A stretch of DNA of 64,000 bases, from positions 2,418,001 to 2,482,000 of the forward strand of contig NZ_CP018016.1 in the NCBI RefSeq assembly GCF_000280495.2. Direction: 5' to 3'. The position numbers and the translations under genes are program-made. Each line of letters starts with the position of its first letter. The first letter of the stretch is position 1. The DNA comes from Kosakonia radicincitans DSM 16656. Its GTDB lineage: Bacteria; Pseudomonadota; Gammaproteobacteria; Enterobacterales; Enterobacteriaceae. The notes beneath the pieces are model-generated. The model made no database searches. It was not told where the DNA came from and worked only from the letters and a program-made list of their open reading frames with translations. Positions 17,949 to 33,027 of the stretch are shown here, one piece after another.

Positions 17949-18488
17949 TTACCACATCAAATCATCGGGCACTTTGAAGTCCGCATATGGGTCATCTTCA
18001 TCCTGTGCTTCCTGCGTGAGCGCGCTGTGCAGCACAATACAGTTGGCATCGCGCTGGGCAATTTTATCGGCAACAGCCGCCGGGATAATGGCGTATGGGT
18101 TATCACCGTTGTTGTCGGACACCAGGCGGGCAATGGCGAGACGGCCATTGATCAGCTGCGCCTGAGTCACTTTATCGACCTCTATTTTTTTAATCAGGTT
18201 ATTGTCGGTGAAGTTAAAACTGATATTGCCTTTCGTTATTGTGATGCGGTTCATCTCAATAAGCTGCTTGATCTGCGCTTTATACTCTTTCGATAACGCA
18301 GCCTGTTTTTGCTGTTCGCTAAGCTGCTTATCACGCTCAAGTTGCGCTTTCTTATTTTCTTCTACCGCTTCTCTGGCCTCACGCGCCTGAACGCGGGACT
18401 TTTTCGCCGTTCTCTGGACTTTGGCCATCTTCTTGCTGGTGACTAATCCAGCTTTTAACATCTGCTCTTGCAAGGTAAGTTTTGTCAT
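17949..18488 (-). CDS. yaiL: YaiL-like protein (DUF2058)
   Basis: A 179-residue protein almost identical in layout to E. coli YaiL: it starts MTKLTLQEQMLKAGLVTSKK, has a highly charged coiled-coil (about 15-75) and ends DEDDPYADFKVPDDLMW. The family is reported to associate with nucleoid or ribosomal fractions but has no settled function. Transcribed alone with a typical ribosome site. Confidence 0.92.
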   Translation of the reverse strand: MTKLTLQEQMLKAGLVTSKKMAKVQRTAKKSRVQAREAREAVEENKKAQLERDKQLSEQQKQAALSKEYKAQIKQLIEMNRITITKGNISFNFTDNNLIKKIEVDKVTQAQLINGRLAIARLVSDNNGDNPYAIIPAAVADKIAQRDANCIVLHSALTQEAQDEDDPYADFKVPDDLMW

Positions 18489-18545
18489 CGTCGTCGTTAA
18501 ACCCGTTGGAGTGTTAGCGGGATTATAACAGCCAAATCGGGCAAG

Positions 18546-19694
18546 TCAGTCAAACAACCTGCGCCGCAGGATCCCTGCATCAATCGCAGCAACATGGGTC
18601 TTGCCGCAAAAAGCCATCGACAAATCGAATTCATTACGAATGATATTCAGCGCCATGGTGACACCTGCTTCGCCCATCGCCCCTAATCCATACAGCATAC
18701 TGCGCCCGATATAGGTTCCTTTAGCCCCCAGCGCAATCGCTTTCAGCACATCCTGCCCGGAACGTATCCCGCCGTCGAAATGGACTTCAATATCATTACC
18801 CACTGCGGCGACAATCTCTGGTAATAAAGTACTTGAGGACGACACTCCATCCAGCTGACGGCCGCCGTGATTGGAGACAATGAGCGCATCTGCGCCTGCC
18901 GCCACCGCCTGGCGTGCATCTTCCACGTCCATAATGCCTTTAACGATCAGCTTGCCGCCCCAGCGCCGTTTAATCCACTCAATATCCTGCCAGGAGAGGT
19001 GCGGGTCGAACTGCTGCGCTGTCCATTCCACCATGGCATCAATGTTATTAACACCGCTGGCGTGACCGATAATATTGCCAAAGTTACGGTTGCGTGTGGC
19101 GAGCATATTGCGGCACCAGCGTGGTTTGCTGGCAATATTCAGCAGGTTGCGCAGCGTCATTTTCGGCGGGGTCGACAGGCCATTTTTAATGTCTTTATGG
19201 CGCTGCCCAAACACCTGGAGATCCATGGTGACGACCAGCGCACCGCAGTGGGCGGCTTTCGCGCGATCGATAAGATTCGCGACAAACTGGCGATCGCGCA
19301 TGACATAGAGCTGGAACCAGAAGGGATGGTAATCCGTGGCCTGCGCTACGGTTTCAATGGAGCAAATGCTCATGGTCGAAAGTGTAAAGGGGATGCCGAA
19401 CGTTTTCGCTGCCCGCGCCGCAAGGATTTCGCCGTCGGGATGGATCATGCCGGTTAACCCCGTGGGGGCAATGGCTACAGGCATTGTTACGGGCTGTCCG
19501 AGCATCACGCTGGCGGTGCTGCGGGCGGCAATATCGACCGCCACGCGCTGGCGAAACTCAAGGCGACGTAAATCCGCTTCATTGGCACGATAGCTATATT
19601 CGCTCCAGGAGCCGGCATCCACATAGTCATAAAACATTTTGGGCACCCGCTTACGCGCCAGTTGCCGTAGATCTTCAATGCAGGTGATGATCAT
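18546..19694 (-). CDS. FMN-dependent alpha-hydroxyacid dehydrogenase (LldD/GOX family)
   Basis: A 382-residue TIM-barrel flavoenzyme that oxidises an L-2-hydroxyacid to the 2-ketoacid. It shows the family N-terminus (FYDYVDAGSWSEYSYR), FMN-binding PVAIAPTG, and the active-site SNHGGRQLDG with catalytic His276. It resembles L-lactate and mandelate dehydrogenases, but the substrate is not decided by these motifs. The ATG at 19694 (MIITCIEDLRQLA) aligns with the LldD start; a GTG at 19739 is an alternative. It ends the operon that starts with the binding protein at 23918, 71 bp after the flavin monooxygenase gene. Confidence 0.9.
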   Translation of the reverse strand: MIITCIEDLRQLARKRVPKMFYDYVDAGSWSEYSYRANEADLRRLEFRQRVAVDIAARSTASVMLGQPVTMPVAIAPTGLTGMIHPDGEILAARAAKTFGIPFTLSTMSICSIETVAQATDYHPFWFQLYVMRDRQFVANLIDRAKAAHCGALVVTMDLQVFGQRHKDIKNGLSTPPKMTLRNLLNIASKPRWCRNMLATRNRNFGNIIGHASGVNNIDAMVEWTAQQFDPHLSWQDIEWIKRRWGGKLIVKGIMDVEDARQAVAAGADALIVSNHGGRQLDGVSSSSTLLPEIVAAVGNDIEVHFDGGIRSGQDVLKAIALGAKGTYIGRSMLYGLGAMGEAGVTMALNIIRNEFDLSMAFCGKTHVAAIDAGILRRRLFD

Positions 19695-19765
19695 GTCGTT
19701 ATCCAGGACGGTGTGGCTAAATAACGATGATTTAGCCACCGGTGACGATCAGAATACGTAGACAA

Positions 19766-21016
19766 TTATGATTTAACGTAGTCGGTATAAGCGTTCTGCA
19801 AAACAATATGATCGGCAATATATTTCGCATCGTGCCATACACCATAAATAAACGATGAGGCACGGTTTACTAAATTAGGCAGACCGAGAAAATAAATACC
19901 GCGCTCGGCGGAAATACCGCGTTTATGGAATGGCAGGCCTTTTTCGTCGAAGGCATCCACTTGCAGCCAGCTAAAATCAAATTTAAAACCCGTCGCCCAG
20001 ATAATAGTGGTAATACCCGCTGCGGCAATATCTAATTGCGCCAGCGGATTGAGCAGACATTGCGGATCCGGCAGCAGTTCCCACGCCTGCGGCTCGGGCG
20101 GCAGATCCAGCCCGTTGCGTTCGATATAAGCATCGGCATCGCGCAGCACGTCAAAGTAGGCGTTATCGCCCGCAGCGATATTCTCCGCCAGGCCGTCGGC
20201 AAAGCTCAGGACGCCGTTATCCCAGCTTTGGGTGATGCCTACCAGCGTAATGCCCATATGCGCCAGACGACGGAAATCCACGGTTTTACCGCCTTCATAA
20301 CCGCTTACCGCAAAGGCAACGTGCTCTTTCTTCGGTTTTATTTTCACTTCATCCCACAGACCCAGCGCGCCGAGCCACCAGCAGTAATCGCGGTCGCGGT
20401 AGGCGCGCGGCGGGCGATAATGTTCGCCAACCGACAGATAAACGTCCCGACCCGCTTTACGCAGCTCTTCGGCAATTTGTGTACCAGAAGCGCCAGCACC
20501 CACCACCAGCACGCCGCCTGCGGGCAACTGCTGCGGATTTTTGTAGACCGAAGAGTGAATCTGCTGCACGCCTGCGCTTTCTGGCACGATCTGCGGGAAT
20601 GAGGGTTTCTGAAACGGGCCGGTGGCGGCCACCACATTCGCGGCCTCAAATTCACCGGCGGAGGTCACCACTTTAAAGCCGCTGCGCCCTGCCAGGCGCA
20701 CAACCTGATGCACGTCAACGCCGGTCCGTACGGGAGCGTTAATCATGCTGGCATACTCTTCAAAATATTGCGCCATGCGCTCTTTCGGCGGAAAAGCTTC
20801 CTGGGAAATATTGTCGAATTTCAGCGACGGGAAGCGGTCGTGCCACGCAGGACCGTTTGCCACCAGCGAATCCCAACGTTCCGAGCGCCAGCGTTCAGCG
20901 ATGCGGCTACGTTCCAGTACGACGTGAGGCACGCCCATCAATGCCAGATGTTCGCTCATGGCAATACCGGCCTGACCAGCGCCGACAATGACGGTATTAA
21001 TTTTTTCTACTGACAT
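19766..21016 (-). CDS. Flavin-containing monooxygenase (CzcO/FMO type)
   Basis: A 416-residue NADPH-dependent flavoprotein. An FAD-binding GAGQAG is at residues 12-17, the NADPH-binding GAGASG near 173, and ATGF close to the C-terminal part, as in class B flavin monooxygenases and related indole or N-hydroxylating enzymes. The order after the transporter permeases, and before the hydroxyacid dehydrogenase, suggests that it oxygenates the imported compound at N, S or an aromatic ring. The substrate is unknown. Confidence 0.85.
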   Translation of the reverse strand: MSVEKINTVIVGAGQAGIAMSEHLALMGVPHVVLERSRIAERWRSERWDSLVANGPAWHDRFPSLKFDNISQEAFPPKERMAQYFEEYASMINAPVRTGVDVHQVVRLAGRSGFKVVTSAGEFEAANVVAATGPFQKPSFPQIVPESAGVQQIHSSVYKNPQQLPAGGVLVVGAGASGTQIAEELRKAGRDVYLSVGEHYRPPRAYRDRDYCWWLGALGLWDEVKIKPKKEHVAFAVSGYEGGKTVDFRRLAHMGITLVGITQSWDNGVLSFADGLAENIAAGDNAYFDVLRDADAYIERNGLDLPPEPQAWELLPDPQCLLNPLAQLDIAAAGITTIIWATGFKFDFSWLQVDAFDEKGLPFHKRGISAERGIYFLGLPNLVNRASSFIYGVWHDAKYIADHIVLQNAYTDYVKS

Positions 21017-21146
21017 GTTGAATCCCTAAATTCAGGCGACCCTCGATAATTTTATCGCGAAGCGTAATCGGGTGTCGTATTAATGATAATCAGGCGTCTT
21101 AAAGGCAGCGCACGGGAAAATCCAGTGCGCCTTCATTCACGGTTAA

Positions 21147-21965
21147 TTAATGTCTGGTCTCAATATTCAATATTTTCCCCAGGCCTAAAAACTTATTGGC
21201 GATAATTAATAACGTGGCGGTGACGGCAATATAAATGACCGACAGGGCTGCCAGTGTTGGGTCAGCAAATTCACGCACATAGTTGTACATTGCCACCGGT
21301 AAGGTCTGTGTTGCCTGGGTAGTAATAAACAACGACGCGGTAAATTCGTTAAACGAGAGGATCGCGGCAAACAGCCAGCCGCCAAACAGGCCCGGCAAAA
21401 TCAGCGGCACGGTGATGGTCCACACCACGCGCAACGGCGATGCGCCAAGGCTTGCCGCCGCCAGTTCAATGCGCTGTTCAAGGTTTTTTATCGACACATA
21501 AACGCTGCGCAGCACAAACGGCAGGACCAGCACGATGTGGCAGAAAATCACCAGCGGATAACCGCGCCCCAGGTTGAGTTGCGACACCAGCATCAGCAGG
21601 CCCAGGCCAATGGTGAAGTGCGGGATAAACAGCGGTGACAGCAAAATCCCTTCCAGCACCTGTTTGCAGGGAAACGAATAGCGTTCGATAGCAATCGCCA
21701 GCGTGGTGCCGATGATCACCGCCAGTGACGATGCCCATGCGGTAACAATTAACCCGGAGTAGAAGCCGTGACGGAAATCATCGTAATTCACCGCGCGCTC
21801 GAACCAGCGCAGCGACCAGCCTTTCGGCGGAAAGAACAACACGGCGGTACTGCTGAACGAGGAGATCAATACCACGATAGTCGGCAGCATCACGAAGAGC
21901 AGAATAGCGGCAACCAGCAGGCGGCCCGCCAGTACACTCAGTTTGTCGTTGAGCGAACGGGTCAT
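21147..21965 (-). CDS. ABC transporter permease, PotC-like
   Basis: A 272-residue inner-membrane protein with six predicted helices and the binding-protein-dependent permease EAA loop (LAAASLGASPLRVVWTITVPLI near the middle). It belongs to the spermidine/putrescine-type (PotC/YdcV) branch. Its start is separated from the PotB-like gene by one base, so the two are coupled. The ATPase partner lies in the neighbouring operon at 28308-29456. Confidence 0.9.
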   Translation of the reverse strand: MTRSLNDKLSVLAGRLLVAAILLFVMLPTIVVLISSFSSTAVLFFPPKGWSLRWFERAVNYDDFRHGFYSGLIVTAWASSLAVIIGTTLAIAIERYSFPCKQVLEGILLSPLFIPHFTIGLGLLMLVSQLNLGRGYPLVIFCHIVLVLPFVLRSVYVSIKNLEQRIELAAASLGASPLRVVWTITVPLILPGLFGGWLFAAILSFNEFTASLFITTQATQTLPVAMYNYVREFADPTLAALSVIYIAVTATLLIIANKFLGLGKILNIETRH

Positions 21966-21966
21966 A

Positions 21967-22821
21967 TCAATGCTCTCCCATCGTGCGCAGGAATCGGGTC
22001 ATGCGTTTGAGCGCCAGCAACAGCAGGATGGTCAGGATCAAACCGGCGATGCTCAGCGCGGCAGCAAACGGGAAGTTCATCGACGAGAAACCCAACTGAT
22101 AGACCATGGTCGCCACGGTGCTGACGCGTCCGCCGCCAATAAGTTGCGGTGTGGCAAAGGCGCTAAAGGTCCAGGCAAACGCGGTAGTGAGGCTGGAGAC
22201 AATGCCGGGAATTGAGAGGGGAATCGTCACGGTCAGCAAGGTGCGGATCGGCCCTGCGCCCAGGCTGGCGGCGGCTTTCTCATAATCCGGGTTGATGTGC
22301 GACAAGGCGGTCGCCAGCATCAGCACCATGATTGGCATGGTAACGTGCACCAGCGCCAGCACCACGCCGGTTTGCGTAAACATAAACTGAATCGGCGTGG
22401 AGATAACGCCCAGCGCCAGCAGCAGACTATTAAGGAAGCCGCTGTTACCCAGCACGATAATCCAGGAATAGGTGCGCACCACTTCGCCGAGAAACATCGG
22501 CGTAATCGCAATAATCAAAATCGCGGATTTGATCCACGTAGTACGGGTGCGCACCAGCGCATACGCCAGCGGATAACTCATCAGCAGGCCAAAAATAGCG
22601 GTTTTCGCGCTCAGTATGACGGTGTTAATAAACGCATCGGCATAGATGCTTTTGAACAGGCCTTTGAAGTTCGCCAGCGTAAATCCGCCCACGTCGAGCG
22701 AACCGGGAATATAAGCGCGCACGCTGAACTGCATCACCGCGAACATCGCGACAACCAGTCCGACTGCGGCGAGCGTCGCGGGGATTATGAACCAGGGTAA
22801 AAATGTTGGTTTTCTCGTCAT
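21967..22821 (-). CDS. ABC transporter permease, PotB-like
   Basis: A 284-residue inner-membrane permease with six helices and the EAA loop (KAAASLGAGPIRTLLTVTIPLS). The start at 22821 (MTRKPTFLPWFIIPA) is preferred; the open frame reaches 22890, but there it overlaps the end of the binding-protein gene and lacks a leader. AAGG sits just upstream. Second gene of the transporter operon. Confidence 0.9.
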   Translation of the reverse strand: MTRKPTFLPWFIIPATLAAVGLVVAMFAVMQFSVRAYIPGSLDVGGFTLANFKGLFKSIYADAFINTVILSAKTAIFGLLMSYPLAYALVRTRTTWIKSAILIIAITPMFLGEVVRTYSWIIVLGNSGFLNSLLLALGVISTPIQFMFTQTGVVLALVHVTMPIMVLMLATALSHINPDYEKAAASLGAGPIRTLLTVTIPLSIPGIVSSLTTAFAWTFSAFATPQLIGGGRVSTVATMVYQLGFSSMNFPFAAALSIAGLILTILLLLALKRMTRFLRTMGEH

Positions 22822-22886
22822 AGACCTTGCTGCCTGAGTAATGTGCTGCCGGTAGAACCCGGGCGGCCCGCAAGCCGCCCGATAAA

Positions 22887-23918
22887 TCAATGAGACATGA
22901 TGTTTTCAGAGAACCACTGACGCCACTCTGCGGTTTTCTCGGCACGCAGCTGCGGATCGGTATTGATGGTGGCATTCCACTGCGCAGGCGTGGTGAGCAT
23001 GCCCGGCAGTTTCGCCAGTTCAGGATCGATATGCGCGTTGGTTACCGTTGGGCTGCCGTGATAAATCTTTGCCACTTGCTCCTGAATTTCGGGCTTCAGG
23101 GCAATATTCATGAACTTATATGCAAGATCGCTATGTTTGGTGCCTTTGTTGATACCAATGGTATCGACGCCCAAAATCGCCCCCTCTTTGGGGATCGCCA
23201 GTTTGACGTCCACCCCTTCAGCCATCATGTTGTAGGCGTTCATCGACAGCATCACCTGTACCGGGGTTTCGCCAGTGGAGATCAATTGCTGGCTGTTGGC
23301 ATCATCGGTATAGAAAGATTTGATATTCGGGATCAGCGCTTTCAGCTTCGCCTGGCCTTGCTGCCAGTGCGCCGCATCGGTGCCGGAGAGTTTGGCGGCC
23401 ACCGCAATGATATGGCTCGGGTCCCAGTCCGGCAGCGCCAGCGTGCCTTTCAGCTCGGGCTTCCACAGATCGTTCCAGCTGGTAAAGGTTTCACCTTTGG
23501 GCACCAGGTCCGGGCGATAGCCGATGGTGTAAACGTAGCCCCACACGCCGAGGTGATAAGGGCTGACTTTCGCCTGTTGCACCAGGTTTGCTGCGTTCGG
23601 GATTTTGCTCATATCGAGTTTTTCAAACAGGCCTGAGTTGGCGTACAGATAGCCCACATGCGCGGTGGTAAAGGTCACGTCAGTTTCAGGTGAACCGCCC
23701 GCCAGCTTGGCTTTGTTGAGGCGATCAATGGTGCCGCCGGTGACAAATTGCACTTCTACGCCGGTCTCTTTGGTGAACTCTTTGGCAATGGTTTCATCGA
23801 TCAGATCTTTAAAACCGCCGCCCCAGGTGCTGACAATCAGCTTGTCAGCGGCCATCGCATTGCCCGCGCTGAGCACGCATGTGGTCAACAACGTTAAGGC
23901 ACAAATCTTACGCAACAT
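22887..23918 (-). CDS. ABC transporter substrate-binding protein, PotD-like
   Basis: Periplasmic receptor of 343 residues. The start at 23918 gives a signal peptide (MLRKICALTLLTTCVLSAG, cleavage after AMA near residue 24) followed by DKLIVSTWGGGFKDLIDE, the pattern of family 1 polyamine and opine-type receptors. Ligand identity cannot be read from motifs; the neighbouring enzymes suggest an N-acylated or amine-bearing organic acid. First gene of the leftward operon that ends with the hydroxyacid dehydrogenase. Confidence 0.9.
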   Translation of the reverse strand: MLRKICALTLLTTCVLSAGNAMAADKLIVSTWGGGFKDLIDETIAKEFTKETGVEVQFVTGGTIDRLNKAKLAGGSPETDVTFTTAHVGYLYANSGLFEKLDMSKIPNAANLVQQAKVSPYHLGVWGYVYTIGYRPDLVPKGETFTSWNDLWKPELKGTLALPDWDPSHIIAVAAKLSGTDAAHWQQGQAKLKALIPNIKSFYTDDANSQQLISTGETPVQVMLSMNAYNMMAEGVDVKLAIPKEGAILGVDTIGINKGTKHSDLAYKFMNIALKPEIQEQVAKIYHGSPTVTNAHIDPELAKLPGMLTTPAQWNATINTDPQLRAEKTAEWRQWFSENIMSH

Positions 23919-24259
23919 ATTCTCATCCCCACTTATGAAATGGCTGTTGTAGCAATCTGAAACCCGACGCGCCGGAACGGTGCAAACGGTGTTCCCTGGT
24001 GTGAAATCGATAATGACGTTGCGAGTTGATTCCGTAAAACAGCCTTTTCCTCGTCGTTGCATCAGGATTTCTGACGCTAAAAAAGGCGCTGCTTTGCAAC
24101 GGATTTTCTTAACCAGTGATAAGGCTGAAGGAATGGTGGCACAACAAAACCAGGGAATTATGCTGTTATTTAGCGTTTGGCATGATAAATGCATGAAAAT
24201 AAGCACTATTAGAATGACTGACGCGACATGATCGCGTCGGCGATCTCAGGAGAACCTGC
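23919..24259. promoter_or_regulatory. Divergent control region between SBP operon and LysR gene
   Basis: Gene-free 340 bases. A 13-bp palindrome GCAT-GATAA-ATGC at 24180-24192, 68 bases before the LysR start, is a candidate LysR operator of the T-N11-A kind. Being placed between divergent transcripts, it could govern both. The exact promoters are not clear. Confidence 0.4.
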
Positions 24260-25222
24260 ATGCTCAGTCGCATTACCCAGCGTCAGCTGGAATATTTTGT
24301 CGCCTCCGGAGAGGCTGGCAGCATTATTGGCGCTTCAGAACGTATCCACGTTTCGTCGCCGTCGATCTCTGCTGCTATCACCCATATCGAATCTGAACTG
24401 GGCGTACAGCTTTTTGTGCGCCATCACGCGCAGGGCGTTTCGCTCACGGCGATCGGTCATCAGGTTCTGAAAGAGGCGAAGCTCATTCTGGAGCAGATGT
24501 TGAACCTCTATACTATCGCGTCGGAATCCATGAACAATGTACGCGGCCCGCTGCGCGTGGGCTGTCTGGATACGCTGGCGCCCATGCTGACCCCCGAACT
24601 GGTGTTCGGCTTTGGCCGCGCGTTTCCCGGTGTGCGCATTACGCTTGTCGAAGGCAACCATGAACAGTTGCTGAAACAGTTACGCACCGCCGATATTGAT
24701 ATCGCGCTGACCTACGATTTAGTCCCCGCCAGCGACATCGCATTTACATCGCTGGCACAGTTGCCACCGTATGTGATGGTGGGTGAACATCATCCGCTGG
24801 CGACGCAATCGGCGGTGACCATTCAGGATCTGGCGACGATGCCGATGGTGTTGCTGGATATGCCGTGGAGCCGTGAATACTTCCTTGGCCTGTTTAGCGA
24901 GGCGGGCGTGACGCCGAATGTGGTAATGCGCTCCAGCAATATGGAAGTGGTGCGTGCGATGGTGGCGAACGGCGTGGGGTTTGGTATCGCCAACGTGCGG
25001 CCGAAAGCGCATCTCTCCCAGGATGGCAAACGCCTGATTCGCGTACGGCTGGCGGGGACCAACAGGGCGATGCAACTCGGTTATGCGACCGCCGCCCACA
25101 CCCAGCACTCGATGGTGGTTAACGCCTTCGCTGAGCGCTGCCGCGTTTTTATCTCCGACCAGTATATTCCTGGCATGGCGGCACCAAGCTATTTCGATCC
25201 GCAGGTGGTGCGGGTGGCGTGA
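24260..25222 (+). CDS. LysR family transcriptional regulator
   Basis: A 320-residue regulator. Residues 1-65 form the winged helix (LSRITQRQLEYFVASGEAGS, later SSPSISAAITHIESELGVQL); the rest is a periplasmic-binding-like effector domain. AGGAGAA is well placed before the ATG. It is divergent from the transporter operon and convergent with the hydroxyacid dehydrogenase operon, making it the likely controller of the 18.5-31.9 kb catabolic cluster. The effector is unknown. Confidence 0.92.
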   Translation: MLSRITQRQLEYFVASGEAGSIIGASERIHVSSPSISAAITHIESELGVQLFVRHHAQGVSLTAIGHQVLKEAKLILEQMLNLYTIASESMNNVRGPLRVGCLDTLAPMLTPELVFGFGRAFPGVRITLVEGNHEQLLKQLRTADIDIALTYDLVPASDIAFTSLAQLPPYVMVGEHHPLATQSAVTIQDLATMPMVLLDMPWSREYFLGLFSEAGVTPNVVMRSSNMEVVRAMVANGVGFGIANVRPKAHLSQDGKRLIRVRLAGTNRAMQLGYATAAHTQHSMVVNAFAERCRVFISDQYIPGMAAPSYFDPQVVRVA

Positions 25223-25254
25223 CTGATGCCTGGCAGCGCAATTTAACGCGTACA

Positions 25255-25286
25255 GCAATGTCGGCAGCATGGCTGCCAGACATTGC
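25255..25286. terminator. Strong hairpin between convergent lysR and hydroxyacid dehydrogenase genes
   Basis: A 14-bp stem (25255-25268 with 25272-25286, one bulged A) with a 3-base ATG loop. The position between two convergent stop codons suggests bidirectional termination, although the T-tail is short on both strands. Confidence 0.55.
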
Positions 25287-25309
25287 GCCATAAATTGCGT
25301 GGTTTTCCG

Positions 25310-26239
25310 TTAATACCCGCGCTCCGGGAACACCTGATTGGTCACCGATTCACCGCGTGCGGCGCGCTGGATGTTTTCTGCCACCTGCTGTGCGGCGCTG
25401 GCAGGGATGGCGACCGAGGCCAGATGCGGCGTGATCAGCACGTTGTCCATCCGCCACAGCGGATCGCAGGAAGGCAGCGGTTCGCGGTCAAACACATCCA
25501 GCGTAGCTTCAGCGATCTGCCCTGAGCGCAGCGCGTCAGTCAGCGCCGCCTGATCGACAATCGCCCCGCGCGAAACATTAATGAACGCCGCGCCATACGG
25601 CAGGCGCGACAGCCGCTCAGCACTGAGCAAGCCAGCCGTGTGTGGTGTAAGTGGCAGCATGACCACCAGAATGTCGCTCTGGCTGAGAAAATCATTCAGC
25701 GACGCCAGCCCACTGCTGCACTTCATACCCGTCATCGCTTTTGGCGAACGCGACCAGCCGCGCACGTCGAACCCCTGTCGTACCAGTTCCCGCGCCGTAT
25801 ATGCGCCCAACTCTCCCAGGCCCAGCACACCGACCCGGATGTCGGAAGGTTTGCGTGGATGCAGGTAATGCCAGCGCTGTTCACGCTGCGCGCGTTCAAA
25901 GGCCGGGATATCGCGCGCGTAGCGCAGCACGGCAAACAGCACGTAACCGGCCATCATGCGCGCCATATCCGGATCGGAGAGACGAATTATCGGAATATCC
26001 GGCAGATCGTCGCGTCCCACCAGCGAATCAACGCCCGCGCCAAGATTCACCAACAGTTTGAGATTGCGGTACGGCGCAAAGAAGCCATGAGGCGGCTTCC
26101 ATGCCAGCGCATAGTGCACCTCATCGGGGTTTTGCACCGTTTCGGCGCGGCAAATTGTCACGCCGGGCAAATGTGGGGCAAGTAAATGGGACCACTCTTC
26201 GAAGCTGTCGAATTCGCTGTAAAACACTAATGTACTCAT
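25310..26239 (-). CDS. D-2-hydroxyacid dehydrogenase (GhrA-like)
   Basis: A 309-residue NAD(P)H-dependent reductase of the D-isomer 2-hydroxyacid family. The Rossmann motif GVLGLGELG is near residue 140, catalytic Arg in NVSRGAIVD, Glu in FDREPLP and His in TPHLAS. Closest in size and motif to glyoxylate/hydroxypyruvate reductase GhrA. It overlaps the AroQ-like gene by four bases (ATGA) and is the last gene of the 25.3-31.9 kb operon. It would reduce a 2-ketoacid, the opposite of the FMN enzyme at 18546. Confidence 0.88.
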   Translation of the reverse strand: MSTLVFYSEFDSFEEWSHLLAPHLPGVTICRAETVQNPDEVHYALAWKPPHGFFAPYRNLKLLVNLGAGVDSLVGRDDLPDIPIIRLSDPDMARMMAGYVLFAVLRYARDIPAFERAQREQRWHYLHPRKPSDIRVGVLGLGELGAYTARELVRQGFDVRGWSRSPKAMTGMKCSSGLASLNDFLSQSDILVVMLPLTPHTAGLLSAERLSRLPYGAAFINVSRGAIVDQAALTDALRSGQIAEATLDVFDREPLPSCDPLWRMDNVLITPHLASVAIPASAAQQVAENIQRAARGESVTNQVFPERGY

Positions 26240-26691
26240 GCAGCGCGCGTTCCCACCAGGTTGACCACCGCATCGATCGCCAGCTCGTAACCGACTGCAC
26301 CCAGCCCGGCAATCACACCGGTTGCCGCTTTCGACACCAGAGAGTGATGGCGGAACGGCTCGCGCTTCCAGATGTTGCTCATATGCGTTTCAATGATTGG
26401 ACCATCAAACATCAGTAACGCATCAAGAATGGGTACCGAACTGTAGGTCAAACCCGCGGCGTTGATAATTAATCCCACCGCGTTCTGGCGCGCTTCCTGA
26501 ATCCAGTCAACCAGCACACCTTCATGGTTGCTCTGGCGGAAATGCAATATCACACCGTGTGACGCGGCGCGGCGCTGACAGCGCGCTTCGATGCTGACAA
26601 AGCTTTCGCTGCCGTAGGTGCCGTTTTTATCCAGCCCATACAAGTTGGCGTTCGGCCCATTGAGAAAATAGATCTGCTGTGACATGCACAC
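26236..26691 (-). CDS. Type II 3-dehydroquinate dehydratase-like protein (AroQ fold)
   Basis: A 151-residue protein of the small dodecameric type II dehydroquinase family. Kept features are NGPN at the N-terminus, the Tyr-Gly of the active-site lid, ETHMSN with the catalytic His, and REPFRHHS. Unusual are the lid, where the normally essential Arg of the R-E-P-x-x-Y-G motif is replaced (DKNGTYG), and the substrate loop TYSS in place of THTS. The shikimate-pathway copy of enterics is usually the unrelated type I AroD, so this one is probably catabolic, and may act on a different hydroxy-cyclic or 2-hydroxyacid substrate. An ATG at 26685 (MSQQIYF) is an alternative start. Confidence 0.82.
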   Translation of the reverse strand: MCMSQQIYFLNGPNANLYGLDKNGTYGSESFVSIEARCQRRAASHGVILHFRQSNHEGVLVDWIQEARQNAVGLIINAAGLTYSSVPILDALLMFDGPIIETHMSNIWKREPFRHHSLVSKAATGVIAGLGAVGYELAIDAVVNLVGTRAA

Positions 26692-26697
26692 TCCTGA

Positions 26698-27309
26698 TTA
26701 ATACGGACGCGTCGCGGCCATTGCCGGATGCGCATCGAAGAGGGCGAACCAGGCGGCGGTAAGCGGGTGGCCAGCGCGCCAGTTGAGCCCGGCAAAGCGA
26801 AAGTCGAGATAACCGAGCGCACAGCCAATGGCAATCAGCCCGATATCGTTGGGATGAGCGCTGAAACTGCTGACCTGGCCTTCGATCTCTGCCAGTGCGG
26901 CGGCGACTTTTTTCAGTTGCGCGTCAGCCCAGTTCTGCCACTGTTTCTCCGGTGGACGCGCACTGAATTCGTAGCGCGCCAGTAATGCGGCATCGATCAT
27001 CCCGTCGCCCAGCGCCTGGCGTGCCAGACTTCTCCAGCGCGCATCGCCTTGTGCCGGGTATAAATCGCCCCCGGCCCGCGCGTTGAGGTATTCGCAGATG
27101 ACCCGGCTGTCATAAAGACAGAGCCCGTTTTCGGTGCGCAGCGCCGGTACTTTTGCCAGAGGATTAAACACGGCAATACGTTCGTCACGTTCGATCGGAT
27201 GGGCGGCAGAATCCAGCCGTTCTATCTCATCAGCAAGACCCAGTACGCTTGCGCACACCATCACTTTGCGTACATAAGCGGACGTGGTGGCAAAAAAGAG
27301 TTGCATCAT
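26698..27309 (-). CDS. Glutathione S-transferase family protein
   Basis: A 203-residue cytosolic protein with the thioredoxin-like N-domain (residues 1-80: LFFATTSAYVRKVMV, NPLAKVPAL, DSRVICEYL) and a helical C-domain. Ser near residue 9 or 10 would be the glutathione-activating residue, as in YibF-type enzymes. It overlaps the quinone oxidoreductase gene by four bases. Within this operon it may conjugate or isomerise an electrophilic intermediate. Confidence 0.88.
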   Translation of the reverse strand: MMQLFFATTSAYVRKVMVCASVLGLADEIERLDSAAHPIERDERIAVFNPLAKVPALRTENGLCLYDSRVICEYLNARAGGDLYPAQGDARWRSLARQALGDGMIDAALLARYEFSARPPEKQWQNWADAQLKKVAAALAEIEGQVSSFSAHPNDIGLIAIGCALGYLDFRFAGLNWRAGHPLTAAWFALFDAHPAMAATRPY

Positions 27310-28301
27310 GACGCCACCTGCAGCAGCACTTTGCCGATGTTGGCGTTGGCTTCAAGGATACGATGAGCGTCAGCCGCTTGCGCTAGCGGCAAGGTTTGAT
27401 ACAGCGTCGGCGCGACTTTGCCTGCGGCGATCAGCGGCAGCAGATGCTTGCTGATGCACTGCGCCAGCCGCATTTTCTCGGCCACGCTTTTGGGGCGCAG
27501 GGTAGAAGAGGTGATGCTCAGCCCTTTGCGCATCACCAGTTGCAGATCGAGTTCAATCTTCGCACCCTGCATAAATGAAAGACTGATATGACGTCCGCCC
27601 GGCGCTAACACGCTCAGGTTGCGCGCCACGTAATCGCCACCGACATTATCCAGCACCACATCGACACCGCGTCCTTCGGTTGCGGCAAGCACGACGGCGA
27701 CGAAATCTTCGTTGTGGCGGTTGATGGCGCGCCATACACCGAGTTGTCGCAGCGCCGCAATCTTTTCACTCCCGCCAGCCGTCGCAATCACTCGCGCCCC
27801 GCATGCCTGCGCACACTGAATAGCAAAGGTGCCAACGCCGCTCGCCGCACCGTGAATCAGTACGGTTTCGCCCGGCTGCAAACGCCCCAGTTCAAACAGG
27901 TTATGCCACACGGTAAATGCTGCTTCCGGCACGCCTGCGGCCTGCGCGAGCGGCAGCGTTTCTGGCACGGATAAACAGAGTTCAGCGCGCGCTACGCAGT
28001 AGTCCGCATAACCGCCGCCATTGAGCAGCGCCATGACCGGCGAGCCAACAGCGGGGAATTCAACGCCTGCGCCCAGCGCTACCACGGTGCCGGAGACTTC
28101 CAGCCCCAGCACATCGGTTACCCCTGGCGGCAGCGGCATACCGTTGCGCTGCAGGATATCGGGGCGATTGACCCCCGCACTGGCAACACGAATCAGCACC
28201 TCACCGGCGCCAGGCAGCGGGACAGGGCGCTGTACGCGCTCTAATACCTCAGGGCCTCCAGGCCGGCACGCAATCACGGCATTCATCATTTCAGGTATCA
28301 T
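27306..28301 (-). CDS. NAD(P)H quinone oxidoreductase, zinc-free MDR family
   Basis: A 331-residue medium-chain dehydrogenase of the PIG3/QOR branch: SAGVNRPDILQRNG, GLEVSGTV, and the nucleotide motif IHGAASGVGTFAIQ near residue 145. The zinc-ligand cysteines of alcohol dehydrogenases are absent. It probably reduces an enone or quinone with NADPH. It starts six bases after the ABC ATPase gene and overlaps the GST gene, so the operon is tightly packed. Confidence 0.9.
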   Translation of the reverse strand: MIPEMMNAVIACRPGGPEVLERVQRPVPLPGAGEVLIRVASAGVNRPDILQRNGMPLPPGVTDVLGLEVSGTVVALGAGVEFPAVGSPVMALLNGGGYADYCVARAELCLSVPETLPLAQAAGVPEAAFTVWHNLFELGRLQPGETVLIHGAASGVGTFAIQCAQACGARVIATAGGSEKIAALRQLGVWRAINRHNEDFVAVVLAATEGRGVDVVLDNVGGDYVARNLSVLAPGGRHISLSFMQGAKIELDLQLVMRKGLSITSSTLRPKSVAEKMRLAQCISKHLLPLIAAGKVAPTLYQTLPLAQAADAHRILEANANIGKVLLQVAS

Positions 28302-28307
28302 CGCGGC

Positions 28308-29456
28308 TTACCCCTGGTTTGCCGTGCTAAAGGCGCACACGCCTTCGTCATCGACACTCACGCCAACCAGACTACCGACTGGCCAGCGCGTCAGCGAATT
28401 CAGGCCGGACTGGCGGGCAAACAGCGCGGCGTTGCCCAGTGCAGGCACATCAAGATGGACATCAACATGATCGCCCTGAAAGACATGGGCGATAACCGTG
28501 GCGCTAAACAGTGAATGCGGGCCAAGCGCGGCCAGTTGAATATTTTCCGGACGGACGTAGACATCAAGGCGCTCGCCAATCGTGGCATGAACGCGCTCTG
28601 CTGGCAGACGCAGCACATTACCGCCCAGATCGAGTATTGCATCGCCATCGCGACCGGCGTAGCGCCCCGGCAGAATGTTTACATCACCGACAAAACCTGC
28701 GACAAACGGATCCTGCGGACGGCGATAAATCTCATCCGGTGTGCCGATCTGGCGTACATGGCCTGCCGACATCACCACCACGCGATCGCTCATGCTCAGC
28801 GCTTCCCCCTGATCGTGCGTCACGAAGACGGTGGTGACGCCAAGTTTGCGCTGAATCGCTTTCAACTCAACCTGCATTGACAGGCGCAGGTTTTTATCCA
28901 GCGCGGAGAAAGGCTCATCCAGCAGCAGCACTTTGGGGCGAATGACCAGCGCGCGGGCCAGCGCCACACGCTGCTGCTGGCCACCAGACAGTTCACGTGG
29001 CTTACGGTGGCCGTAACCAGCAAGCTTCACCAGCGCCAGCGCCTGCTCAACGCGTTCAGCAATCTCGGCTTTGGGCACACCGCGCATACGCAGGCCGTAA
29101 CCCACATTCTTCTCGACTGTCATATGCGGAAACAGCGCGTAGTTCTGAAAGACAATGCCGATTTCCCGCTGCCAGGGCGGTATATCGGTCACCAGATCGC
29201 CATCAATAAAGATCTCGCCGCCATCCGCTTCGGCGAAACCCGCCATCAGATTCAGCAGCGTGGTTTTACCGCAGCCTGAAGGGCCGAGCAGCGTAATAAA
29301 TTCCCCTTCCTCAATCATCAGGGAAATTTTATGTAGGGCGATGGCGTCGCCAAAGCGTTTCAGTACGCCATCAAGCCGTACGGCAACGTTAGCGTTGCGC
29401 GCGACGGGGGGCAGCGTGTCGGGCTGCGGGAATGTGGTGATTTCTGCACTGACCAT
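28308..29456 (-). CDS. ABC transporter ATP-binding protein, PotA-like
   Basis: A 382-residue ATPase with Walker A GPSGCGKTT, Q-loop FQNYALFPHMTV, signature LSGGQQQR and Walker B VLLLDEPFSALD, followed by a C-terminal TOBE regulatory domain (about 295-380). Polyamine/iron class. It is the only ATPase near the PotB/PotC/PotD-like genes in the other operon, so it very likely completes that transporter. It has about 180 bp upstream of its start and may have its own promoter. Confidence 0.92.
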   Translation of the reverse strand: MVSAEITTFPQPDTLPPVARNANVAVRLDGVLKRFGDAIALHKISLMIEEGEFITLLGPSGCGKTTLLNLMAGFAEADGGEIFIDGDLVTDIPPWQREIGIVFQNYALFPHMTVEKNVGYGLRMRGVPKAEIAERVEQALALVKLAGYGHRKPRELSGGQQQRVALARALVIRPKVLLLDEPFSALDKNLRLSMQVELKAIQRKLGVTTVFVTHDQGEALSMSDRVVVMSAGHVRQIGTPDEIYRRPQDPFVAGFVGDVNILPGRYAGRDGDAILDLGGNVLRLPAERVHATIGERLDVYVRPENIQLAALGPHSLFSATVIAHVFQGDHVDVHLDVPALGNAALFARQSGLNSLTRWPVGSLVGVSVDDEGVCAFSTANQG

Positions 29457-29639
29457 GGAATCTCCAGAAACGGGGCTATCAAATACTGTCCACCAGCATA
29501 CGGCTTAAGCGTGCATCACGCGGTTAGTGCTTCCTGAAGCTGGCATTTGGAAAAGTTAAAGCAGTAAAGAGTGGGGGATAAATGCCGGGCGGCCAGGATG
29601 CGCCCTGCATTTACGGTGCGATGGTGTTGGACGGCAACG

Positions 29640-30797
29640 TCATGCTTTCTGGCACATCCACGTCGCAAGACGACGTAGCAGGGCATCGCAGGCCTCCATC
29701 TGTTCGATGGTGATAAATTCATCCGGTTTATGGCCCTGCGCCATACTACCCGGCCCGCAGACCACGCTGGGAATACCTGCCTGATGGAACAACCCGCCTT
29801 CCGTACCGAATGCGACGGTGCTGAACGCGTCAGAACCGGTGAGATGGGCAAGCAGCCGGGCCGCGGCGCTTTGCGCGTCGGTGTACAAACCGGGATAACC
29901 GCTAATGGGATAAAAGCGGATCGCTGCCTCGCCATTCACGGCGTGCATTTGCGGCAGGAGTTCGCGCTGCGCGTAATTCTCCAGTTCCCGTGCCACTTCC
30001 TGCGCATCATCCTGCGGCAATGTGCGTACCTCGAAGTCAAACGTACATTCGGCAGGCACAATATTGAGCGCCCGGCCGCCCAGGATGACGCCCGTTTGTA
30101 CGGTGGTAAACGGCGGATCAAAACGCGCATCCTGATGTTCCGGCGCGGCCAGCCGCTGGCCTATCACCGTAAGCTTATGGATAAGCTTTGCGGCATATTC
30201 GATGGCATTCACGCCCTGTGGTGCGTAAGCCGAATGGCAGGCGGCACCCTGTACTTCACAACGCACGCCGAGCTTGCCTTTGTGGCCGAGCACGGGTTGC
30301 AGTTCGGTGGGTTCGCCAATCAGGCAGATATCGGGCTTTTCCGGGCGCCGGGAGAGGGCATCCAGCAGGGTTCGCACGCCAAGGCATCCCACTTCCTCAT
30401 CATAGGAAATGGCCAGATGCAGCGGTTGCGCCAGCGGCTGCGTAAGAAAATAGGGGACGGCAGCCAGCACGCAGGCGATAAAGCCTTTCATGTCCGCCGT
30501 GCCGCGACCGTACAGTTTGCCTTCTCGTTCAGTCAGTACAAAAGGGGGAACGCTCCAGCTCTGCCCGTCAACGGGCACCACGTCGCTGTGGCCCGAAAGC
30601 ATCACGCCGCCGCTACCCGCCGGGCCAAGCCGGGCATACAGATTCGCTTTGCTGCCTTCGGCGTTGTGAATCAGTTCGCACTCGACACCAAGCCCGGTTA
30701 AGTAGCGACGAACAAAGTCGATCAGCGCCAGATTAGATTCGCGGCTGGTGGTGTTAAACGCCACCAGTTGTTCCAGCAGTTTGCGGCTGCTCATCAT
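29640..30797 (-). CDS. M20 peptidase, acetylornithine deacetylase (ArgE)-like
   Basis: A 385-residue zinc amidohydrolase. Metal ligands are visible: His in SGHSDVVP, Asp in GRGTADMKG, the Glu pair in SYDEEVG, Glu in IGEPTE, and His in AQGHKPDEF near the end. The central lid domain is normal. Because this copy lies in a transporter/oxidase operon and not in the arg cluster, it more probably removes an N-acyl group from an imported compound. AAGGAG lies upstream of two adjacent ATGs (30797, 30794). Confidence 0.88.
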   Translation of the reverse strand: MMSSRKLLEQLVAFNTTSRESNLALIDFVRRYLTGLGVECELIHNAEGSKANLYARLGPAGSGGVMLSGHSDVVPVDGQSWSVPPFVLTEREGKLYGRGTADMKGFIACVLAAVPYFLTQPLAQPLHLAISYDEEVGCLGVRTLLDALSRRPEKPDICLIGEPTELQPVLGHKGKLGVRCEVQGAACHSAYAPQGVNAIEYAAKLIHKLTVIGQRLAAPEHQDARFDPPFTTVQTGVILGGRALNIVPAECTFDFEVRTLPQDDAQEVARELENYAQRELLPQMHAVNGEAAIRFYPISGYPGLYTDAQSAAARLLAHLTGSDAFSTVAFGTEGGLFHQAGIPSVVCGPGSMAQGHKPDEFITIEQMEACDALLRRLATWMCQKA

Positions 30798-30812
30798 CGG
30801 ATCTCCTTGCGG

Positions 30813-31487
30813 TTACTCGTCGCCCGGCACGCCATAACCCGGCGCACTGCGGGGATCGAGTGCGCGGGTTAAATAGTCCTGCATCTGCGGTTTATAGGCG
30901 TGCCAGAGGTTACTAAGTTCAGCAATCGGATCGGCATCGGTCCAGTCAACGCGCAAATCAACAATCGGCCAGACTGGCGAATCGACAATCGACAGCGCCG
31001 CCGAATGCACCGGACCGGCTTCCCCGCCCGCTTGCAGGCCCACCTGCATCGCGGCAATGAGCCTGTCAGCAAGATGCCCGGACTGCTGTTCGAAGGCGTT
31101 GACCATCGCGGTAATAACATCAGTATTTGCCAGCAGATTACCCGCCGCCACGCAGTTCTCCCCGCGCAGTGCGTGGTTGACGCCCAGCGTCTTTTCGCCG
31201 CTGTAGAACGCGCTTTCACCGCTGGCTGTCAACACGGTAACCTGTCGGTACATGAAGTAGTCATCCGTGTCGAGCCCGAATTGCAGTGCGGTTTCGGCAG
31301 CATCGCCTTGCTGTAACCGATCAAGAATGCGCGGCCCCAGCGCCGGTAAGGTGATGTTTTGCGTTGATACCGCGCCAACCTTGCTGCGCAGCCAGGGGCA
31401 GCGCGCGCCGACCGCGATGCTGGAAGAGCTAATAGCAATGCCGATCTGGCCGGTTTGCGCGCAGCGTCCGATAATCGATAACGTCAT
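30813..31487 (-). CDS. DUF1028 family protein (Ntn-hydrolase-like)
   Basis: A 224-residue cytosolic protein beginning MTLSIIGRCAQTGQIGIAIS and continuing with SIAVGARCPW and STQN, the conserved face of the DUF1028 fold, which is related to N-terminal-nucleophile hydrolases. The biochemical role is not established. It lies four bases after the RidA-like gene and just before the M20 deacylase, a frequent grouping in amino-acid-derivative catabolism. Confidence 0.85.
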   Translation of the reverse strand: MTLSIIGRCAQTGQIGIAISSSSIAVGARCPWLRSKVGAVSTQNITLPALGPRILDRLQQGDAAETALQFGLDTDDYFMYRQVTVLTASGESAFYSGEKTLGVNHALRGENCVAAGNLLANTDVITAMVNAFEQQSGHLADRLIAAMQVGLQAGGEAGPVHSAALSIVDSPVWPIVDLRVDWTDADPIAELSNLWHAYKPQMQDYLTRALDPRSAPGYGVPGDE

Positions 31488-31491
31488 GATT

Positions 31492-31926
31492 TTAGGCTCC
31501 TGATTGCGGCTGCCAGTCGTCCGGAATCACCGCGATAACATCAATTTCCATCAGCCATTGCGGCTGACCAAGCGCAGAAATGACCAGCCCGGTTGAGATC
31601 GGAAATACACCCTTCAGCCATTTGCCAACCACTTGATAAACCGGTTCGCGGTAGCGGGGGTCGATGATATAGGTGGTGGTTTTAACGATGTGTGACAGAT
31701 CGCTGCCCGCTTCTTCCAGCAGTTGTTTTACGTTCTTCATCGCTTGCTCGGCCTGCGCTGCTGGATCGCCAAGCCCCACCAGGTTGCCTTCGAAATCGGT
31801 ACCAATCTGGCCGCGAACGTACACGGTATTGCCTGCGCGCACGGCCTGGCAAAGATCGTTATCAAGTGACTGATTTGGATAAGTGTCTTTGGTGTTGAAT
31901 TTACGAATGCGGGTATGTGTGCTCAT
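31492..31926 (-). CDS. RidA/YjgF family protein lacking the usual catalytic arginine
   Basis: A 144-residue trimeric-fold Rid protein: VYVRGQIGTD, QAMKNVKQLLEEAGSDLSHIVKTTTY and the final EIDVIAV are typical. At the position of the imine-hydrolysing Arg of E. coli RidA (FPARS) this protein has FPIST, so Ser replaces Arg. It therefore belongs to a Rid subgroup whose imine deaminase activity is doubtful. First gene of the 25.3-31.9 kb operon. Confidence 0.88.
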   Translation of the reverse strand: MSTHTRIRKFNTKDTYPNQSLDNDLCQAVRAGNTVYVRGQIGTDFEGNLVGLGDPAAQAEQAMKNVKQLLEEAGSDLSHIVKTTTYIIDPRYREPVYQVVGKWLKGVFPISTGLVISALGQPQWLMEIDVIAVIPDDWQPQSGA

Positions 31927-32493
31927 GTCTGCCTGCCTGGAAATGGATTCCCGGCAAGGTATACCTTCTCAGGCATAACAAACAAAACAGAATAATCCGA
32001 GGCGTTAGTTTAGAAAATGCGAACACCCCTCCAGACCTGCACCGCTTTTGTCATCATCAAACGACGGAGCGCCCCGGCGCAAAAGGCCTGATAACGTTTT
32101 TTCCACATTTCAATCGCCGCCTCGTAAAAGTCTTGCGGGTCGCTGATGAATCTACATGGATATCAGCGCGTTACATTTCCTTACCTAAAGCCGCTTTGAT
32201 GAAATAATAACGTAATTAAATTAATGAAAAGTGAATGATGTGTTCAGGCGCCTGGTTTGCCGCTTATTCCCGCAGGTGCCTTTGTTCAGCCAGTGTCAAT
32301 CACGTAATTGTGTATCTGAAACAGAGAGCTTGTTAGCCGCCAGCGCGGGAGCCATAAGCGTTGCGGGGTAACGAGCGCGAGGAAAAGCTGGCTTTGCTTA
32401 TAACAAAGCTCTTACATCCAGAAACGAAATAGTAATCTTTAGTTATATTTGCGCGGGTAAATTAAATGTCTCACCTTTCTTTGAGGAATGGTT
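31927..32493. other. Gene-free region upstream of ridA-like and chorismate mutase genes
   Basis: 567 bases between divergent genes. No frame in it has both a ribosome site and sensible composition. It should contain the promoters of the leftward catabolic operon and of the rightward chorismate mutase gene; AT-rich stretches near 32200-32230 and 32430-32465 are the likely places. Confidence 0.45.
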
Positions 32494-33027
32494 ATGAAGA
32501 ATTTCGCATCAACTCTACTCATGTCCGGAAGCGTTTTTGCGGGAGCATCAGCTTCCATCTGTCTTAATGCCCTTTCGTTAATCCTGACCGAACGCATGCA
32601 GATAATGAGAGACGTTGCGGCTTACAAGGCGAAGTATGATTTACCCGTGGAGGATTTAGCGCGGGAAGAAAAAGTGCTGTCGGCGGCGCGGAACACGGCG
32701 CAAGAAGCCGGGCTGGAACCTCAGTCAGTGGAGTCGTTCATCAGTGCGTTGATGACTGCGGGTAAAACGATACAGTATCGCTATCTGGCAGATGGGTTTG
32801 CGCCAGCAGATTTATCTGTCACCCAACGGGATCTTGAGGGAATCAGACAGCGTATCAATGAACTGGACAAGCATTTGCTCATGACCATCAGCCAGCGGCT
32901 TCGCACAGGTCAACTCTCTTATTCTGAGCGGGCCTGGCTGGCTGAGAGAACAGCGTCTCCGAATCTGACTGTAGCCGAGAAGGATAATCTACTGGACACC
33001 ATGCGCTATATTCAGCGCGCCGGGTAG
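32494..33027 (+). CDS. Periplasmic chorismate mutase, AroQ-gamma type
   Basis: A 177-residue exported enzyme converting chorismate to prephenate. A signal peptide ends near residue 20 (FAGASAS). The mature helical protein carries the AroQ-gamma set: LTERMQIMRDVAAYKAKY, EDLAREEKVL, and KTIQYRYLADG, supplying the Arg, Lys, Glu and Gln of the active site. The start at 32494 is chosen because GAGGA sits 7 bases upstream; the ATG at 32488 is too close. Exported forms occur in plant- and animal-associated bacteria; a role in the host or in scavenging is unproven. Confidence 0.9.
   Translation: MKNFASTLLMSGSVFAGASASICLNALSLILTERMQIMRDVAAYKAKYDLPVEDLAREEKVLSAARNTAQEAGLEPQSVESFISALMTAGKTIQYRYLADGFAPADLSVTQRDLEGIRQRINELDKHLLMTISQRLRTGQLSYSERAWLAERTASPNLTVAEKDNLLDTMRYIQRAG

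Follow-up and report, generated by a model that had tools for sequence, protein, structure and literature searches.

A conserved, mobile gene cluster of Kosakonia radicincitans with a Hin-like ring-opening core and a probable role in the catabolism of an imidazole compound

Introduction

The window analysed here is a stretch of 64,000 nucleotides from Kosakonia radicincitans DSM 16656 (contig NZ_CP018016.1 of 5.82 Mb, in a genome of 6.12 Mb; positions 2,418,001 to 2,482,000), and its segment 18546-31926 holds a block of catabolic and transport genes. This locus raises the question of whether these genes serve a single pathway and, if so, on which compound the pathway acts. The first-pass annotation described the block as thirteen genes in two operons around one regulator, tied together by a split PotABCD-like importer and belonging to no named pathway. 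According to our results, the cluster is a single unit, real and conserved, with a HinFLHG-like set as its core. As a whole, it is probably a mobile cluster for the catabolism of an imidazole compound, in which ring opening of the Hin kind would be combined with an importer of its own and a side-chain module. The cluster is best read as known in its ring-opening core and regulator type, and new in its importer and side-chain module, for which no described pathway was found.

According to PMC8231116, histamine is converted to imidazoleacetate by HinC and HinD, imidazole-4-acetate is converted to aspartate by HinFLHG, and imidazoleacetate is the signal sensed by the LysR regulator HinK; in P. 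aeruginosa, the histamine entry genes are unlinked to hinFLHG. PMC6467879 describes HinF as an FAD (flavin adenine dinucleotide) monooxygenase (EC 1.14.13.5), HinL as an enamine deaminase, HinH as an amidase and HinG as an amidase of EC 3.5.1.8.

Conservation and Mobility of the Cluster

Fourteen uninterrupted open reading frames (ORFs) were found in the block, thirteen on the minus strand and one, a divergent LysR gene, on the plus strand. Their families, assigned by Pfam/NCBIfam profile matches, include all those named in the first-pass annotation, each as an intact ORF; the count of thirteen given there is one gene short. The products are referred to below as flavin monooxygenase (FMO), RidA, DUF1028, M20, AroQ-like protein (AroQL), GhrA-like reductase, NAD(P)H:quinone oxidoreductase (QOR), glutathione S-transferase-like protein (GST), the FMN (flavin mononucleotide) enzyme, the LysR regulator and the four parts of an ATP-binding cassette (ABC) importer.

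A scan of the genome collection with FMO gave 591 relatives, and the best 80 were taken and split into 31 loci with an FMO identity of 69-89% (L035-L065), termed type I, and 49 loci with an identity of 62-66%, mostly from Pseudomonas (L066-L114), termed hin-type. A set of 58 type I loci, picked by FMO, AroQL or DNA similarity, comprises L003, L004, L006, L009, L035-L065, L115-L132, L173, L174 and L176-L178, and leaves out the broken copy L005. In 51 of the 58, the ATPase gene is accompanied by at least one receptor or permease gene. It was never found alone (0/58), the receptor side stands alone in one locus, on a 6.6-kb contig, and neither is present in six Pseudomonas loci. Two unrelated pathways that are merely adjacent are thereby ruled out, since the halves co-occur in this way and stay together even when rearranged. 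The proposal of one catabolic unit with a split importer is thus supported, and separate operons, each with a complete transporter, were looked for and not seen. RidA, DUF1028, ATPase, AroQL, GhrA-like reductase, binding protein and both permeases are all present in 32 of the 58 loci.

Conservation of the gene set in Enterobacteriaceae, which had been suggested as a check, was examined in 18 regions of other genomes (5 from the genus set and 13 from the family set; FMO identity 78-99%). All 18 have the ten genes that run from FMO to ATPase, LysR among them, in an identical order. M20 comes next after the ATPase in 15 of them, being split off in L127, missing in L130 and beyond the reach of the region examined in L132, while the FMN enzyme is present in 12. 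In Variovorax, all 14 genes lie together with rearranged order and orientation. Counting the window's own genome, FMO was found at an identity of at least 96% in 6 of 15 genomes of the genus and at at least 78% in 15 of 295 genomes of the family sample.

The block was also searched for in 72,556 plasmid records, of which 164 match, 107 of them over at least 80% of its length. Klebsiella hosts 103 of these plasmids, Sinorhizobium 28, Pantoea 13, Escherichia 7 and a few other genera the rest; 98 of the 164 were typed as conjugative. The plasmid copies show about 85% nucleotide identity to the block, and this recurrence places the block far beyond chance. Two annotated full copies, one from a Klebsiella IncFIB/IncFII plasmid and one from an E. 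coli plasmid, have the gene order of the window and are surrounded by insertion sequence (IS) elements. Among 5,426 complete E. coli genomes, a single one matches, on a plasmid, with 53% covered at the best place, and in Pantoea dispersa the cluster resides on a megaplasmid and lacks the FMN enzyme. Being present on conjugative plasmids and at unlike chromosomal sites, the cluster is regarded as mobile.

Incomplete forms were observed as well. A plasmid of Raoultella sp. HC6 (L007, 11968-14055) carries a relic with the FMN enzyme gene beside IS903B, and a Cronobacter plasmid (L010, 8001-8118) carries another, 118 bp from the upstream region of RidA, close to a vapBC pair; judging from both, plasmids seem not only to gain the cluster but also to lose it. 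On a Pseudomonas silvicola megaplasmid (L005, 8241-21247), nearly every gene matches only as separate, apparently frame-shifted pieces, as a result of either decay or sequencing error. A second cluster on S. meliloti pSymB was ruled out: apart from the FMN enzyme, nothing there matches closely, ATPase and QOR reaching 30% or less. This 64% relative of the FMN enzyme (L008, 14857-15993) stands beside genes that by eye are guanine-deaminase-like and xanthine-dehydrogenase-like, hinting at a hydroxyacid step close to purine breakdown.

The Hin-Like Core

In its families and gene order, the grounds on which membership was assigned, the core of the cluster matches the ring-opening part of the Hin pathway known from Pseudomonas putida U and P. 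aeruginosa PAO1. Among the 49 hin-type loci, FMO, RidA, DUF1028 and M20 occur together at an identity of at least 40% in 48, with FMO only in L111, and form a contiguous one-strand FMO-RidA-DUF1028-M20 order in 40. None of the 49 contains AroQL, the GhrA-like reductase or the FMN enzyme, and their matches to the transporter and QOR reach at most 47% identity. With an ORF caller that misses genes, an NCS1 permease family was found around 34 of the 49. The window cluster differs from the Hin pathway by its own FMO clade, its ABC importer and its module of AroQL, GhrA-like reductase, QOR, GST and FMN enzyme; a HinA permease, HinC aminotransferase or HinD aldehyde dehydrogenase was not found among its 14 genes, to which this search was confined. 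The earlier statement that no named pathway applies is therefore upheld for the whole set, as far as open-licence literature goes, and has to be revised for the core and the regulator, which resemble the Hin route.

By homology to HinG (EC 3.5.1.8), the M20 enzyme would remove the formyl group made at ring opening, so the acyl group that it cuts probably arises during ring opening and is not imported. The first-pass annotation had proposed a route unrelated to any named pathway, in which an N-acylated or amine-bearing acid is imported and deacylated by M20, followed by oxygenation and interconversion of 2-keto and 2-hydroxy acids. The enzyme families are as stated there, M20 passes a model for acetylornithine deacetylase, and 2-hydroxy and 2-oxo acids suit both the FMN enzyme and the GhrA-like reductase. 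However, the FMO-RidA-DUF1028-M20 core has a described role and order, with M20 read as the last step, which makes such a route very improbable. Import of an N-acylated acid is unlikely, while the interconversion of 2-keto and 2-hydroxy acids is plausible for the side chain. M20 also passes NF005710 and fails another acetylornithine deacetylase equivalog, NF003474 (266 of 460), and its gene context points to an acyl substrate other than acetylornithine. Public plasmid records name M20 argE and call AroQL a 3-dehydroquinate dehydratase; for this cluster either name may be misleading, even though M20 passes the deacetylase model.

In the DUF1028 protein, structure modelling gave an N-terminal nucleophile (Ntn) hydrolase fold with an N-terminal Thr, and the protein is predicted to be a hydrolase of this type with Thr2 as nucleophile. 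The structures nearest to the model are 2imh and then taspase-1, a threonine aspartase. RidA shares its fold family with the archetypal RidA imine deaminase and differs from it by a Ser in place of the essential, carboxylate-binding Arg (Arg105/107) required for imine hydrolysis. This Ser was found in 78 of 80 readable relatives, five more being unreadable at this position. According to PMC4433059, Ser-type proteins make up about 10% of RidA proteins. For FMO, assignment to the MSMEG_0569 type (TIGR04046) was rejected, with 345.5 bits below the cut-off of 498.35.

The two cluster types appear to have exchanged parts. The window proteins have a median identity of 91% (RidA), 62% (DUF1028) and 66% (M20) to their hin-type counterparts, and of 67%, 48% and 43%, respectively, to those of betaproteobacterial type I loci. 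FMO behaves in the opposite way, with 79% to type I and 64% to hin-type. In trees built by a quick method, in which L044 was assigned to type I, the FMOs of type I fall into a single clade apart from the hin-type FMOs (support 100). The type I/hin label changes seven times in the RidA tree, which has few columns, with two changes forced by strong branches, and seven times in the M20 tree, which has some long branches, with five changes forced. As RidA and M20 were exchanged between the types and the oxygenase was not, the late intermediates are probably alike in both. Both cluster types were also found within one genome, namely in G601, G078, G100 and P. aylmerensis S1E40 (L036 and L092).

Among 398 genomes sampled from the phylum, six (own included) contain AroQL at 67% identity or more and four, all within those six, type I FMO at 69% or more, and 27 further genomes have an FMO of 57-65% identity; a seventh AroQL-like match (54%, L175) has no other cluster gene nearby. 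Two of the loci, L173 and L174, contain AroQL, importer genes, GhrA-like reductase, RidA, DUF1028 and M20 and no FMO. Their best operator sites, with scores of 13.4 and 24.3, lie 95-100 bp before an HpaB gene, and the oxygenation step seems to have been taken over here by a non-homologous enzyme. Such a phenol-hydroxylase-type enzyme, placed directly behind the best operator site, as well as the separate clade of type I FMO, would suit a pathway for a non-imidazole N-heterocycle, with enzymes of the Hin route recruited to analogous N-formyl or N-acyl intermediates. We consider this unlikely, in view of a RidA that is about 91% identical to that of hin-type loci, the repeated exchange of RidA and M20 with hin clusters and the HinK-type regulator. 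As a separate observation, an HpaB-like oxygenase gene (by eye, like that of L173) directly precedes a hin-type FMO-RidA-DUF1028 group in L110 (8440-9987), a metagenome-assembled contig labelled Proteobacteria.

Regulator and Operator

In the PDB, the window LysR is matched best by 6m5f and 3fzv (205 bits) and scores 99.8 with the entry that follows, and the LysR beside the hin core in L068 reaches 538 bits to the same two. These entries, named in the database only as probable transcriptional regulators, are presumably HinK/PA0218. By this similarity, the window regulator is of the HinK type and resembles the imidazoleacetate sensor.

Between the LysR and binding-protein genes, a dyad with a T-N11-A core followed by AAAAGGCTGTTTT is conserved from Pantoea to Klebsiella plasmids. 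With a first matrix made from four Pseudomonas and Salinicola sites, this site ranks first in the 64-kb window (20.0, where 12 random sequences gave at most 17.2), a score that is not fully independent, since the training sites were found via the dyad first seen in the window. In Salinicola (L178), sites scoring 48.1 and 47.2, both in the training set, precede both operons, and the next best reaches 5.5. A second matrix, with two Enterobacterales sites added, was applied to 28 type I loci outside training (L035, L036, L038, L039, L041, L043, L054 and L178 left out), many of them from related species; in 25 of these the best site fell no more than 300 bp upstream of a cluster gene, against 4.6 expected. 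The same was found in 21 of 49 hin-type loci, with 3.5 expected, and hin clusters may thus use a related operator. The candidate upstream of RidA is shared by the plasmid copies and, in part, by Pantoea. A plain 15-mer comparison of the two promoters gave nothing clear, and the shared site was found by the dyad and matrix approach.

A terminator-like hairpin followed by a T run (24087-24101, minus strand) was noticed just upstream of the operator in the leader of the binding-protein operon; its sequence is kept in many, though not all, relatives.

Importer and Proposed Side-Chain Genes

The importer shares its ABC family and subunit make-up with the polyamine importers PotABCD and PotFGHI, and differs in that its subunits fall below the Pot equivalog cut-offs, its ATPase is encoded in another operon than the permeases and receptor, and the aromatic and acidic pocket residues are mostly gone. 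Its ATPase misses the PotA equivalog cut-off (385.5 of 482) and passes the polyamine-ATPase subfamily model TIGR01187 (368.9 against 355.6). At the polyamine-pocket positions of PotD, the binding protein keeps two Asp and has lost the equivalents of Trp34, Tyr37, Tyr85, Glu171, Trp229 and Trp255. With the pocket mostly lost, polyamine import is unlikely. In a Pseudomonas variant (L036, L039, L041, L043 and L054), the importer, GST and GhrA-like reductase are missing from the stretch examined, while AroQL, FMO, RidA, DUF1028 and M20 are kept; a polar-amino-acid type ABC system and a class II aldolase lie there instead, together with a PhyH dioxygenase in four of these five loci.

AroQL was found in 55 of the 58 type I loci, the GhrA-like reductase in 51, QOR in 49 and GST in 46. 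The FMN enzyme is optional, being present at an identity of at least 40% in 26; in L057 and L059, FMN enzymes with about 35-40% identity lie within or next to the cluster, as if this step had been recruited more than once. AroQL has the fold and several active-site residues of type II 3-dehydroquinate dehydratase (AroQ), retaining the Asn of NGPN, the Tyr before Gly, and the active-site Asn, Asp, Glu and His. In each of the 20 copies aligned, that of the window among them, the catalytic lid Arg is gone, one active-site His is changed to Tyr and the His of VHAR to Trp. It passes three dehydroquinase subfamily models and misses the aroQ equivalog (150.7 of 169.85), and the genome encodes a separate AroQ, 47% identical to it. 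A role as spare dehydroquinase is unlikely, with the catalytic Arg and His replaced in every copy, and AroQL is likely an enzyme of AroQ fold with a new function.

The constancy of AroQL and GhrA-like reductase also bears on the possibility of a plain histamine or imidazoleacetate-scavenging cluster, with imidazoleacetate, either imported or formed within the cell, as direct substrate and with AroQL, GhrA-like reductase, QOR, GST and FMN enzyme handling by-products or a second compound. A full ring-opening set with a HinK-type regulator, together with a single FMO match at E <= 1e-100 and a single DUF1028 gene in the genome, would fit such a role. These genes are, however, too constant for accessories (55 and 51 of 58 loci), FMO is type-specific, and genomes that hold both cluster types show that type I is not a mere substitute; direct use of imidazoleacetate therefore seems doubtful. 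Histidine as such is probably also dealt with elsewhere, as the genome contains a histidine ammonia-lyase above the family cut-off. Taken together, the side-chain genes, the Pseudomonas variant and the receptor pocket suggest a carboxylated imidazole with a 2-hydroxy or 2-oxo acid in its side chain, either from the start or as an intermediate stage, and an imidazole with such a side chain is our best guess for the substrate.

Proposed Pathway and Its Meaning

With the gene set, its conservation, the HinFLHG family and order match, the operator of the relatives, the DUF1028 fold and the active-site change of AroQL computed directly, we infer the imidazole nature of the ring, the order of steps and every step on the side chain. 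A HinK-type LysR would activate the operons through a common operator, and the PotABCD-like importer would take up the imidazole compound. AroQL, GhrA-like reductase, QOR, GST and, often, the FMN oxidase could then trim the side chain to imidazoleacetate or a close analogue, the ring of which would be oxygenated by the flavin monooxygenase. RidA-like and DUF1028 (N-terminal-threonine) hydrolases would open the ring to an N-formyl amino acid, from which M20 would split off formate, leaving aspartate or a homologue. A narrower version, which we put forward only tentatively, is a horizontally spread pathway for imidazolelactate- or imidazolepyruvate-like compounds, with AroQL, diverted from the shikimate pathway, acting on the side chain and DUF1028 as a new N-terminal-threonine amidohydrolase on the opened ring.

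Several points weigh against an imidazole pathway of this kind. The match to the Hin route is based on family, order, regulator and papers, and no gene of the cluster has a known role in producing imidazoleacetate. Within the stretch read near the hin-type cores, inspected with the same ORF caller, a class III aminotransferase family was found at only 10 of 49 and an aldehyde dehydrogenase family at only 13 of 49. M20 scores 393.8 bits with the acetylornithine deacetylase model TIGR01892 (cut-off 297.7). The separate clade of type I FMO means that its substrate may differ from imidazoleacetate, and in L173 and L174 its place is taken by an HpaB-family flavin oxygenase, in L173 together with a flavin reductase. 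As hin-type loci also exceed chance in the operator count, the operator is not specific to the type I cluster, and as the site at the RidA promoter is weak (6.0), control of the RidA operon by LysR is deduced mainly from relatives. Finally, the 58 loci include many near copies and some that are cut short.

Mimosine, opine, ectoine and mercapturate catabolism were considered and dropped, as key genes are missing. In open-licence literature, no paper containing DUF1028 and none naming such a cluster was found. A 13-kb unit of this kind, present in soil, plant and root bacteria and on conjugative Klebsiella plasmids, would provide its carriers with a nutrient of their own. The link to an imidazole ring turns an orphan list of enzymes into a testable pathway, in which DUF1028 and Ser-type RidA proteins gain a concrete proposed reaction and an AroQ-fold enzyme a likely new function. 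The public labels argE, 3-dehydroquinate dehydratase and polyamine transporter on genes of this cluster are probably misleading.

Gene Layout and Neighbouring Features

Table 1. Genes and candidate operators of the cluster (positions in the window).
Feature	Position	Strand	Profile match or remark
RidA-family protein, HinL-like, putative Ser-type enamine/imine hydrolase	31492..31926	-	PF01042
DUF1028 protein, HinH-like, predicted N-terminal-threonine amidohydrolase (Ntn fold, Thr2 nucleophile)	30813..31487	-	
M20 deacylase, HinG-like, putative N-formylaspartate-type deformylase	29640..30797	-	PF01546/PF07687
ABC transporter ATPase, PotA/PhnT-like	28308..29456	-	PF00005 and TOBE_2
QOR, PIG3-type MDR (medium-chain dehydrogenase/reductase)	27306..28301	-	TIGR02824, 408.6 bits (cut-off 296.8)
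GST	26698..27309	-	PF13409/PF13410
AroQL, type II dehydroquinase fold, changed active site	26236..26691	-	PF01220
D-2-hydroxyacid dehydrogenase, GhrA-like	25310..26239	-	PF02826; GhrA model, 222 of 403 bits
LysR-type regulator, HinK type by similarity	24260..25222	+	closest solved relatives 6m5f/3fzv
Periplasmic binding protein of ABC importer	22887..23918	-	PF13416
ABC permease 1, PotB-like	21967..22821	-	PF00528
ABC permease 2, PotC-like	21147..21965	-	PF00528
FMO, HinF-like, putative imidazole-ring oxygenase, type I clade	19766..21016	-	Pyr_redox_3/FMO-like
FMN-dependent L-2-hydroxyacid dehydrogenase/oxidase	18546..19739	-	PF01070, NF008398
Candidate composite LysR-type operator, T-N11-A dyad 24059-24077 and AAAAGGCTGTTTT	24034..24077	-	before the binding-protein operon
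Weak candidate operator	31982..32026	-	before the RidA operon; best of that upstream region, score 6.0

The binding protein and the first permease were assigned the ATG codons at 23918 and 22821, respectively, and the longer ORFs upstream of both are open upstream extensions only. Of the layout proposed earlier, the single regulator was retained; as for the two operons, gaps of 183 bp between M20 and ATPase and of 130 bp between permease and FMO indicate that the cluster may instead be transcribed as four short units. A search of 18300-32600 against Rfam gave no match reaching the gathering score, and promoter and terminator consensus scans gave output no higher than in shuffled sequences.

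An arylmalonate decarboxylase/EutA-like gene adjoins the type I clusters in L046, L050, L057, L058, L062, L063, L174 and L176, as judged by PF17645 in L174 and by similarity or eye in the other loci, and TRAP-transporter-like (tripartite ATP-independent periplasmic) genes accompany it in several of them. Near the cluster in the window, the gene at 34131-35534 encodes by eye a polygalacturonase-like glycoside hydrolase, which fits a plant-associated host.

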